Positions 24,883 to 45,998 of a stretch of DNA of 64,000 nucleotides are shown here, piece by piece. A program made the translations under genes and the position numbers. A model generated the notes under the pieces. That model was given only the letters and a program-made list of their open reading frames with translations, had not been told where the DNA came from and did no database searches. Every line of letters starts with the position of its first letter. Position 1 is the stretch's first letter. Source of the stretch: Epilithonimonas bovis DSM 19482. GTDB lineage: Bacteria > Bacteroidota > Bacteroidia > Flavobacteriales > Weeksellaceae. The stretch is taken from positions 1 through 64,000 of the forward strand of contig NZ_FTPU01000004.1 of assembly GCF_900108115.1 (NCBI RefSeq). Direction: 5' to 3'.

Positions 24883-25898
24883 AAAAAAAGCAAATCATAT
24901 GGCTTCAAATTATCTATTGGAGTCTCAACTTTTTTGGAACTGTCATCACGCCTGTTTTCTTTTTTCCTAAAGAAAGTGATTTGCAGAGTACAGTTTTGAG
25001 AATTACCTTCTTTCTTGCTGGGATTTTTACTTTCTATATTTGTTATTTAGCTATTATTCCGAAAGTTTTTAGACCAGAGAAAATTTATACAGTTATTCTT
25101 TCATTTTTCTTGTCGATTCTTTGTTTTGCGACTTTGCGATATTTGATGGAAGAAGTTCTTCTGCCTGCCACTTTTGGATTTAGAAACTATAATGAAGAAA
25201 CAGGATTGCTTTATTACTTTTTTGATAATATTTACTACGGCTGTATCAACGTTTTTATTGCTGGAATAATGTGGTTGCTGGAAAAATTTGGCGTGATTGA
25301 AACTGAAAAACAAAAACTGGAACAGGAAAGAAACGAAGCGAAAATTCAGGCTTTGAAGACGCAAATCAACCCACATTTTATTTTTAATACTTTAAATAAT
25401 ATCTATTCCTTGGTTTATCAGAACTCAGAAAAAGCATTGCCTGCGATTGAGGAATTAAGCCAGTTATTAAGATACAGTACGAAAGATTTAGAACAGGATT
25501 TCATTTCTCTGGAAAAAGAAATCGGCTATCTGGAAAGCCTCATAGAATTGGAAAAACTCAGAATCAAAAATCCTGATTTGCTAATGATTGAAAAGAAAAT
25601 CAATTTTCCGGATCTCAACATTTCGCCGATGCTTCTGGTTCCGTTTGTAGAAAATACTTTCAAGCACGGCGATTTCAGTGGAAAAGGTTTCATTATGAAA
25701 ATTTCGGATGAAAATAAAACTTTGAATTTCTATCTTCAAAACTTCAAAAAACAAAGGTCTAAAGACTCACTCTCCGGGATTGGAATCGGAAATGTGAAAA
25801 AAAGACTGGAAATCCTTTATCCAGGTAAGCACGAATTGAACATCACTGAAACAGGAACCGATTTTACAGTAGATTTGAAAATCGATTTGAATGTATAA
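24879..25898 (+). CDS. LytS/YehU-type sensor histidine kinase
   Basis: The 339-residue protein has four N-terminal membrane helices (about residues 7-27, 40-60, 75-95, 110-135) with short loops, then a coiled linker (KQKLEQERNEAKIQALKTQ). The His_kinase domain follows with INPHFIFNTLNNIYSLVYQN; the phosphoacceptor His is near residue 166. A degenerate GHKL ATPase has LLVPFVENTFKHG and GIGIGNVKKRL. It is typical of Bacteroidetes LytS/LytTR pairs. The partner regulator follows after a repeat element. The stop codon forms the edge of that repeat. Confidence 0.9.
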   Translation: MKKKQIIWLQIIYWSLNFFGTVITPVFFFPKESDLQSTVLRITFFLAGIFTFYICYLAIIPKVFRPEKIYTVILSFFLSILCFATLRYLMEEVLLPATFGFRNYNEETGLLYYFFDNIYYGCINVFIAGIMWLLEKFGVIETEKQKLEQERNEAKIQALKTQINPHFIFNTLNNIYSLVYQNSEKALPAIEELSQLLRYSTKDLEQDFISLEKEIGYLESLIELEKLRIKNPDLLMIEKKINFPDLNISPMLLVPFVENTFKHGDFSGKGFIMKISDENKTLNFYLQNFKKQRSKDSLSGIGIGNVKKRLEILYPGKHELNITETGTDFTVDLKIDLNV

Positions 25899-26009
25899 AC
25901 CACAAAAGACACAAAAGAGTTAGACTTTTGAATATTCATTAAAAGAAACAACCGTTTTTTTCTTTTGCATAACTTTATTTTCAATTATTTCTTTTGTGAC
26001 TTTGTGGTT
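25897..26009. repeat. Palindromic intergenic element, copy 1 (113 bp)
   Basis: The element is bounded by an inverted repeat: AACCACAAAAGACACAAAAG at the left end and CTTTTGTGACTTTGTGGTT at the right. The same termini bound 45765-45998. It fills most of the spacer between the LytS and LytTR genes, overlapping the LytS stop codon. It has no coding potential and looks like a MITE-type or REP-type repeat. Confidence 0.75.
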
Positions 26010-37776: not shown

Positions 37777-38269
37777 CCTTACGGTAATGACCAATATCGT
37801 TCTTCCTAACGAGACCAATTCTTTGCGAAACCTTTTCGGCGGCGAGTTATTGGCCAGGATGGATCGCGCTGCTTCTATCTCTGCCACCAGGCATTGTGAG
37901 AGAAGGGTAGTGACGGCTTCCGTCAATCATGTGTCATTTGATCAACCAATTCCCGAAGGTGGCATTGTTGTTTTGGAGGCCAAGGTTTCCCGCGCATTTT
38001 CTACATCTATGGAGGTGTATGTAGATACATGGCTGGATGATCCTATCAATCAGAGAAAAACACATACCAATACAGGTATTTACACATTTGTTGCGGTGGA
38101 TGAGTTTAACAAACCTGTGCCTATCCCGCATCTGGAGCCAGAATCTGAAGAAGAAGTTCAGCGTTTCCATGCAGCATTACGAAGAAAAGAACTGTCCCTC
38201 ATCCTCTCCGGCAGAATGAAACCAACAGATTCTATAGAACTGAAAAAATTATTCTTAGGCGAGGAATAA
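37748..38269 (+). CDS. Acyl-CoA thioesterase (hotdog fold)
   Basis: The 173-residue protein starts MQKSKKSIDSLTVMTNIVLP. The hotdog fold carries NETNSLRNLFGGELLARMDRA (N-x-x-G-x-x-FGG active-site helix; written as NETNSLRNLFGG and ELLARMDRA), VTASVNHVSFDQPIPEG and a FVAVDE strand. It belongs to the YciA/BACH acyl-CoA hydrolase group, which releases free CoA from acyl-CoA. The 29 bp overlap with the preceding gene indicates coupling, though functions are not evidently related. Confidence 0.92.
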   Translation: MQKSKKSIDSLTVMTNIVLPNETNSLRNLFGGELLARMDRAASISATRHCERRVVTASVNHVSFDQPIPEGGIVVLEAKVSRAFSTSMEVYVDTWLDDPINQRKTHTNTGIYTFVAVDEFNKPVPIPHLEPESEEEVQRFHAALRRKELSLILSGRMKPTDSIELKKLFLGEE

Positions 38270-38270
38270 A

Positions 38271-38730
38271 AACACAAATAACACAAATGCTTAGCACAAA
38301 TTCTCACAACATTTCAGAAAATGAAATATCTAAAATTGTTTATGAATCCGGATTTTTAGTTCATAAATCATTAGGGCCGGGACTTCTGGAAAGTGCATAT
38401 GAAGAGTGCATGTTCTATGAAATTAAAAAACAAGGGCTATTTGTTGAAAAACAAAAACCAATGCCTCTTTTTTATGATGAAATAAAAATGGATGTTGGAT
38501 ACTGATTAGATTTATTAATTGAAAATAAATTTATTGTGGAAATCAAATCTGTTGAAGCTTTGAATGATGTCCATTTAGCTCAGATTCTTACTTATCTCAA
38601 ATTGAGTAAATGTAAACTTGGTATGTTGATTAATTTCAATACATCTCACTTTAAAAATGGAGTTAAACGAATTATCAATGGAAAACTCTAGAGTAGTGTG
38701 ACTTGTGATAATATTAGTGCAATTAGTGTT
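38271..38730. mobile_element. GxxExxY gene bounded by imperfect inverted repeats
   Basis: AACACAAATAACACAAAT at 38271-38288 and ATTAGTGCAATTAGTGTT at 38713-38730 are inverted copies with 14 of 18 positions matching. Between them lies only the broken GxxExxY gene. The layout suggests a small mobile or mobilised cassette. No transposase is present. Confidence 0.45.
38287..38691 (+). pseudogene. GxxExxY protein gene interrupted by a TGA codon
   Basis: The frame starts ATG 38287 and carries the name-giving motif in GPGLLESAYEECMFYE (about residues 30-45). At codon 73 (38503-38505) a TGA interrupts the otherwise open frame. Reading on in the same frame gives LDLLIENKFIVEIKSVEALN, HLAQILTYLKLSKCKLG and LINFN...KRIINGKL to a TAG at 38689-38691, which is the usual C-terminal half of this ~130-residue family. 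The position normally holds Arg (CGA to TGA is a single change). The family is linked to a PD-(D/E)XK nuclease-like fold; function unknown. Confidence 0.85.
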
Positions 38731-45764: not shown

Positions 45765-45998
45765 AAACCACAAAAGCCACAAAAGAAAAACTTACTTGAA
45801 AACTTTGCAAAGTTGAAAACAAAAATACTTAAAATGCTTTCCTTTTTTGGGTTTTTGATCAACTGAAAAAAACATCTGAATGTCCGCTTTCTGGAACAAT
45901 TGTATTTTTAGCAGTTATTTTCTTCATCATGTATTAATTGACTAATTATGGATATTCAATAAGACTTATATAGTATAGCTTTTGTGACTTTGTGGTTT
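45765..45998. repeat. Palindromic intergenic element, copy 2 (234 bp)
   Basis: The left end AACCACAAAAGCCACAAAAG and right end CTTTTGTGACTTTGTGGTTT form the same terminal inverted repeat as in 25897-26009. The interior is longer and differs from copy 1. It fills most of the 378 bp spacer between pncB and the next gene and has no convincing coding potential. Confidence 0.75.

Follow-up and report, generated by a model that had tools for sequence, protein, structure and literature searches.

The question raised by this locus is whether a GxxExxY gene that is interrupted by one TGA and lies between inverted repeats is simply a broken gene, or one copy of an element in which gene and repeats belong together. 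The locus lies in a 64,000-nucleotide stretch of Epilithonimonas bovis DSM 19482, here called the window, in which the following features are referred to below.

25898 to 26009, no strand assigned: non-coding element with inverted AACCACAAAAGACACAAAAG-type ends and an exact CCACAAAAGNCACAAAAG at 25900
38267 to 38269: stop of the upstream neighbour, a putative thioesterase-like gene, named from our own reading of its translation
38270 to 38730, forward strand: GxxExxY element, the gap between the upstream stop and the A-tract preceding the downstream gene
38271 to 38311, forward strand: upstream array of four CAC-type units at 38273, 38282, 38295 and 38305 (spacing 9, 13, 10)
38287 to 38505, forward strand: GxxExxY gene, first half, closed by the TGA (open reading frame and profile matches)
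38506 to 38691, forward strand: second half of the gene, in which the frame continues (D, ExK and QxxxY motifs intact)
38692 to 38728, reverse strand: downstream array of four inverse CAC-type units at 38728, 38719, 38707 and 38698 (spacing 9, 12, 9)
38737: ATG of the downstream neighbour, a putative dehydrogenase-like gene, likewise named from its translation
45765 to 45998, no strand assigned: non-coding element with inverted AAACCACAAAAGCCACAAAAG-type ends and an exact CCACAAAAGNCACAAAAG at 45768

The reading frame of the window copy is not intact: its open frame at 38287-38505 comprises 72 codons, the TGA is codon 73, and the continuation at 38506-38691 is in the same frame. In a profile search the two halves matched TIGR04256 (GxxExxY) with E values of 3e-15 and 1e-18, exceeding the curated cut-off, and each half separately matched PF13366 (PDDEXK_3) above its cut-off, in agreement with the original prediction of a GxxExxY gene with a single TGA and a preserved second half. 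The frame is not an S23p or four-helix-bundle gene, and the site is intergenic, not in an rRNA gene. The genome to which the window belongs (G000, 3.35 Mb) holds seven GxxExxY members, the six others being without a stop. This TGA may be a sequencing error; elsewhere in the family, in-frame stops were found within the matched stretch at 4 of 75 loci of the genus, and at 8 of 80 loci that were the best 80 of at least 577 matches (one of the eight having its stop only at the extreme end). The window copy is thus an ordinary decayed member of the GxxExxY family. That the break is recent, as had been proposed, found weak support, the broken copy evolving at most slightly faster than its intact relatives.

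The 18-bp inverted repeats claimed for the ends of the locus do match at 14 of 18 positions, and this match was equalled in 10 of 300 dinucleotide shuffles, which makes it marginal when taken alone; the arrays of four units on either side are the stronger signal. The upstream units fit CRCNA, with four copies upstream and four inverse copies downstream, and among 2,000 shuffles the unit counts were matched upstream in 9, downstream in 1 and at both ends in none, for a motif that was picked after inspection of the locus. Scanning of the window for the pattern at both ends returned 2 of 9,075 positions, both at the GxxExxY locus, and an Rfam search of 25500-46500 gave no match.

We then asked whether the gene and the arrays occur together elsewhere, using two sets of loci. 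The family is present in 22 of 23 genomes of the genus, with 88 matches, from which 75 loci were fetched after exclusion of five fragments and eight weak matches to proteins of ~360 aa; these are not independent, falling by their shared flanks into 13 groups and 6 single loci. The second set (the named loci) consists of the best 80 of at least 577 matches to one peptide pattern, and comes mostly from Bacteroidota, many of the records being MAGs. For each locus we took the best inverted match between the 300-bp flanks, with a threshold of 13 and with windows 600 bp further out as controls; loci lacking full windows were lost (3 of 75 in the genus, 13 of the 80 named loci). Inverted matches at or above the threshold framed 56 of 72 genus loci compared with 2 of 72 outer windows, so that repeats flanking other GxxExxY genes, which had been predicted, proved to be strong and frequent; among the named loci (from the best 80 of at least 577) the corresponding figures were 37 of 67 and 1 of 67.

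A stricter rule called for two CRCNRDG units 2-4 bp apart, and could be applied to 78 of the 80 named loci, two being dropped for short flanks. For these best 80 of at least 577 matches, inward-pointing pairs stood upstream of the gene at 51 of 78 loci and downstream at 57 of 78, with both ends bearing a pair at 42, not both at 36, and neither at 12, while outward-pointing pairs were seen upstream at 18 of 78 and downstream at 16 of 78. Inward pairs appeared in none of the 78 shuffles (one per locus) and in 0 and 1 of 66 outer windows. Within the genus the strict pair was present upstream at 13 of 75 loci, downstream at 8 and at both ends at only 7, and it is therefore the inverted repeats, with their drifted units, that carry the case there. 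Units in the arrays are mostly spaced 8-12 bp apart with a mode of 9 bp; this mode is slightly below one helical turn. Chance was considered as the source of the association, and was ruled out by the shuffles and the outer windows. The unit formed by a GxxExxY gene and its inverted arrays is solid.

This unit is present in records of several phyla. Judged by record title, and among the matches listed, clear arms were carried by loci from Bacteroidota, Anaerolineae (L221, L237), a cyanobacterium (L239) and a Caulobacteraceae MAG (L232), and clear misses with no arms were L202, L216 and L226. A Gemmatirosa replicon (L305) has a full hairpin on either side of its GxxExxY gene. A plasmid search with one query protein (L018) matched 7 of 72,556 records, and IMG/VR contributed one GxxExxY locus in a single alignment; the family is therefore not mainly plasmid-borne, and we rejected plasmid or viral spread as its main route. 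Five of the seven plasmid places and the IMG/VR locus were tested, and of these L302-L305 had inverted arms and L307 had none. At L306 (Sphingomonas parapaucimobilis), where the GxxExxY gene is annotated between fabD and fabG, there is an array upstream and the downstream arm is absent. No cas genes were found among the named neighbours in four plasmid-collection loci, these neighbours being adenine deaminase, radA, fabD/fabG and hypotheticals.

Repeats of this kind also occur by themselves. Both non-coding elements that had been noted at 25.9 and 45.8 kb are real, each pairing its exact CCACAAAAGNCACAAAAG with an inverse partner. Their likeness to the ends of the window gene holds at the level of repeat families and goes no further: the window copy has AACACAAAT arms, whereas these elements have CCACAAAAG arms, as do its sister copies L005 and L007 elsewhere in G000. 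The gene-free inverted-array elements that were read measured 59-234 bp. Dozens of places in the genus match the ends of L066 and L005, and in one genome (G004) all 19 of the 19 places fetched, which were chosen by end similarity, proved to be inverted pairs of 59-163 bp. Such repeat pairs are dispersed, and concentrated in genomes that encode the family. Among 148 sampled genomes of the phylum of the window, 75 of which have the family, CRCAAAGNNCRCAAAG was present in three or more copies in 27 of 75 genomes with the family compared with 2 of 73 without it (Fisher p = 1.4e-7, relatedness not modelled), and in total 304 times with the family compared with 25 times without it, the backwards pattern giving 16 and 12. 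Four of the 73 genomes held at least two copies despite having no GxxExxY gene. Some pattern matches may not be elements. The CGCAAAGAGCGCAAAG-type matches at G000:C60:116512-117821 follow one another on a single strand at intervals of ~300 bp, which may mark a repeated segment and not elements. In G071, none of 12 pattern matches lay within 20 kb of the three gene places listed (four in all).

The sites were then compared with those of relatives. At the window site the GxxExxY gene was absent in all 20 relatives fetched; the junction measured 55-166 bp in 19 of them, and G008 had another open reading frame. For G011 and G012 (outside the 20 fetched), no family match was found on the contigs concerned. 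Most window-site junctions hold what looks by eye like a terminator-like hairpin, and this is the position that the element occupies; the same was seen at another site (site 8). Here and at some other sites, then, the element replaces local sequence instead of splitting a site. Of the empty sites that had been predicted, element-free junctions were found at site B and at 45.8 kb; the window element itself did not split a clean empty site. No clear target duplication was seen at the window site, A, B, 45.8 kb, 4, 5 or 8, where flanks are diverged or replaced, and no excision junction was seen at the sites examined. A 17-bp duplication at site 4, from overlapping query ranges, was set aside as a chance likeness of the gene end to the arm.

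Site B bears the gene in G001, G004, G005 and G019, in G000 (a shortened gene) and, up to the contig end, in G012. The G000 copy (L007, G000:C51:14377-14661) has a start region shorter than that of its orthologs and an unbroken frame. In G011 and G014 (L131, L132) the same junction holds a derivative in which the two arms and the gene's initial codons are retained. Deletion derivatives, which had been suggested as the origin of the short elements, were thus seen at this one site. Five further genomes (G002, G009, G015, G017 and G022; L126, L129, L133, L140 and L141) have a non-coding CCACAAAAG-type element there, in which, by eye, a second, inner inverted pair similar to CGCAGATTT-type arms appears to be nested, most clearly in G022; the outer arms are worn in G015. 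Site B is element-free in G003, G006, G008, G018, G020 and G021, and holds other open reading frames in G007, G010, G013 and G016.

At site A (the site of L005; L071-L074), a single junction is occupied in different species by two GxxExxY subfamilies with different arms, one in G000 and the other in G004, G005, G016 and G019, and G002 has a non-coding form of the latter. A CACAAAG element takes this position in G003, G007, G009, G017, G018 and G020, only a short junction is found in G011 and G014, and the other nine genomes have another open reading frame. The 45.8 kb element was absent in 6 of 20 relatives (G006, G008, G011, G013, G014 and G015), with G006 retaining the flanks on both sides, and the remaining relatives hold related or other elements. 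Sites are thus polymorphic within the genus, and junctions have been reused repeatedly by different elements. Many sites are common to several species, and movement is therefore old or rare.

The GxxExxY protein is ~125-135 aa long, and in alignments of 20 and 60 sequences the residues E27, D67, E77, K79, Q91 and Y95 are invariant, giving a PD-(D/E)xK core with QxxxY; this set of E, D, ExK and QxxxY we take to be the mark of the RecB/Cas4 nuclease group. PF13366 was the only Pfam family to score above its cut-off (for the window halves and three relatives). An AlphaFold model of L163, an intact family member from Kaistella palustris, built on 60 sequences (pLDDT 94.7), had as its top Foldseek match the Cas4 protein Pcal_0546 (E = 8e-4, TM 0.49, rmsd 11.5), the only match below E 0.001, followed by a second Cas4, LHK-Exo and lambda exonuclease and, further down, tRNA-splicing endonucleases. 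The model weakly suggests that GxxExxY is a probable DNA-cutting enzyme whose nearest predicted fold is that of Cas4 and lambda exonuclease. Across 11 ortholog groups, dN/dS was 0.002-0.096 (pairs of equal length with dS > 0.05), and the copies are therefore under strong purifying selection.

Selection of this strength would also be expected of a nuclease that serves its host in repair or defence, with the arrays as binding or self-marking sites and no mobility involved. The protein matches Cas4 and one candidate defence profile weakly, with E values no better than 4e-4 in either case, and the sharing of sites between species would fit as well. Against this stand the presence, absence and replacement of elements at one gene junction within the genus, the nested elements, which look mobile, and the in-frame stops, whose frequency in the genus and in the best 80 of at least 577 matches looks like that of a mobile family. 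We consider this explanation very improbable.

Inverted repeats also frame other small genes. Short GIY-YIG open reading frames were located at 12 places in five genomes, and eight were tested. Four had inverted TGTCA..CTGAG..GTCGAAG-type repeats (L308, L313, L318 and L309, scoring 21, 22, 17 and 12, the last being weak, compared with 8-11 outside), two had inverted repeats of other sequence (L312, 33; L310, 15), and two had practically none (L319, 11; L321, 9). Five GIY-YIG genes of ~600 aa, presumably UvrC, scored 8-11 and had no framing repeats; three of 458-478 aa lay outside the test. Single-domain GIY-YIG frames at L300 and L301 also have an inverted CTTCGAC..GCTCAG..TGACA-type frame, and L297 and L298 are non-coding versions of the GIY-YIG repeat element at another site. 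Among four-helix-bundle genes (PF05635, L096-L125), 12 of 30 genus loci had inverted repeats (score at least 14); eight of these 12 carry AAAGAATAAAGAGAAAAGA and are maybe one ancestral locus. Strict unit pairs were found at 0 of 29 four-helix-bundle genus loci (one of 30 being excluded, as it is cut by a contig end), a mild contrast with the 13 and 8 of 75 at GxxExxY loci. The parallel GIY-YIG and four-helix cases suggest a wider class.

If the GxxExxY protein acts on the arrays, the two might be expected to vary together. Protein and arm distances were correlated in a Mantel test of genus representatives (r = 0.33, p = 0.001; 22 chosen and 20 kept, with 23 used in the orientation and flank tests) and, more weakly, at 71 of the named loci from the best 80 of at least 577 (r = 0.15, p = 0.001; with GC removed, r = 0.145, p = 0.0015). 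Since the representatives were hand-picked, in part because their arms were clear, and sites are shared by some of them, the 72-locus flank figure is the fairer one. Members of one protein subfamily at different sites (L005, L061, L049) have CCACAAAAG arms in common, and L035 and L016 have CGCAGATTTT arms in common. Arm type thus tracks protein subfamily, with modest covariation. Of the two roles that the original prediction had left standing for GxxExxY proteins, cargo or enzyme for the repeats, the covariation of arms and protein favours the enzyme.

If GxxExxY were instead a passenger, the repeats would be moved by another enzyme, for which a conventional transposase that uses the inverted ends would be a candidate. 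We regard this as unlikely: one array grammar accompanies the family across several phyla, subfamily predicts arm type, and the four-helix-bundle loci lack strict pairs, mild as that contrast is. It would nevertheless account for repeat ends that match far more places than there are genes, for repeats in some family-free genomes, and for a protein whose Pfam domains are of nuclease type only.

Gene orientation bears on how these copies are expressed. With orientation called from the longest open frames, 53 of the named loci (best 80 of at least 577) share the direction of both neighbours and 2 oppose both (p = 9e-14), 11 of the 80 having no call on one side and 14 having opposed neighbours; among 23 genus representatives, 22 were in the sense of their neighbours and 1 was against. 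Such a bias is not expected of mobile genes with their own promoters, and GxxExxY copies may therefore live on read-through transcription.

The same bias (53 to 2 in the best 80 of at least 577 matches, 22 to 1 in the genus) could arise if these were RNA-level elements like the 23S rRNA intervening sequence, with the protein a passenger or acting on RNA: sense insertion into an operon would be harmless because RNase III would cut the hairpin out of the transcript. The intervening sequence of Coxiella is, in the part of PMC4990558 available, an excised RNA element with an open reading frame, and both the inverted repeats around four-helix-bundle genes and the tRNA-splicing endonucleases among the weaker fold matches would be in keeping with this. 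In 47 elements, however, arm identity was 858/968 (89%) inside units and 144/258 (56%) between them, as expected of a recognition sequence and not of selected pairing; the value within units is inflated, because the same motif served to choose them. Strong purifying selection on the protein also speaks against an RNA-level element, which we hold to be a rather remote explanation.

GxxExxY genes inside mirror arrays and scattered empty arrays together seem, therefore, to make up one selfish or tamed element, and the locus in the window is probably a decayed copy of an element that joins a nuclease-like gene to inverted arrays and has a RAYT/REPIN-like mode of action. Its first part is a gene for a PD-(D/E)xK nuclease-like protein of ~125-135 aa, set in the sense direction in host gene strings; its second consists of ~9-bp units (CRCNRDG and variants), which bracket the gene as a pair of inverted arrays. 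We propose that the nuclease likely recognises the array units, and that it would nick or resect DNA at array-bounded hairpins. Array-bounded DNA might thereby be spread or preserved in trans, so that the protein, by analogy, could move the elements, while gene copies would be inherited mostly vertically, under selection. As a whole, then, the earlier interpretation of the locus is partly supported.

More tentatively, as a possibility that we would not yet call probable, the family may belong to a class of miniature mobile DNA whose drivers are solitary nucleases and not transposases, comprising Cas4-like GxxExxY with ~9-bp arrays and, in the same genomes, parallel GIY-YIG (perhaps also four-helix) systems, in which cleavage and host repair would spread hairpin repeats to intergenic, often terminator-bearing, sites. 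Through its link to arrays, a widespread family acquires a substrate that can be tested. The link would also account for one class of intergenic repeats, in flavobacteria and elsewhere, and it suggests that the spread or maintenance of repeats can rely on a lone nuclease in place of a transposase. Literature searches found no treatment of repeats under the GxxExxY name in the portions of text available, none on GxxExxY repeats by title or abstract start (among preprints, those in PubMed Central only, with few subscription papers), only unrelated papers among the matches listed for unit 8-mers (most subscription papers and non-PubMed Central preprints being outside the scope), and no paper for the exact GIY-YIG repeat strings.

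Among known systems, conventional MITEs are short non-coding elements with inverted ends whose parent insertion sequences are longer and coding. The GxxExxY family, too, has short inverted-end elements and a longer coding relative, but this relative has no DDE transposase, and no target duplication is visible. Cas4, lambda exonuclease and RecB-type nucleases come closest to GxxExxY in predicted fold and have the invariant set of E, D, ExK and QxxxY in common with it, whereas the GxxExxY protein has only ~126 aa and its gene is bracketed by repeats. The 23S rRNA intervening sequence carries an S23p open reading frame in a short element, according to the available part of PMC4990558. Like it, the GxxExxY element is short, has a small open reading frame in the sense of the host transcript, and has decaying copies; it differs in its protein, in the location of the loci read, which are not in an rRNA gene, and in its arms, which are conserved in the units more than between them. 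In RAYT/REPIN systems, as set out in the available part of PMC3116915, a small enzyme gene lies near repeats that are dispersed as inverted doublets in extragenic space, and repeat type and enzyme type vary together. GxxExxY likewise has nearby repeats, dispersed inverted doublets and covariation of arms with protein. RAYT, however, is a Y1 transposase and GxxExxY a PD-(D/E)xK nuclease-like protein with QxxxY, its repeats are arrays of ~9-bp units, and its gene stands in operon sense. Because the enzymes are unrelated, GxxExxY, which has the dispersed inverted doublets and lacks the RAYT-family Y1 transposase, falls outside RAYT/REPIN while the analogy stands, and we would take RAYT/REPIN as the nearest working model for GxxExxY arrays.
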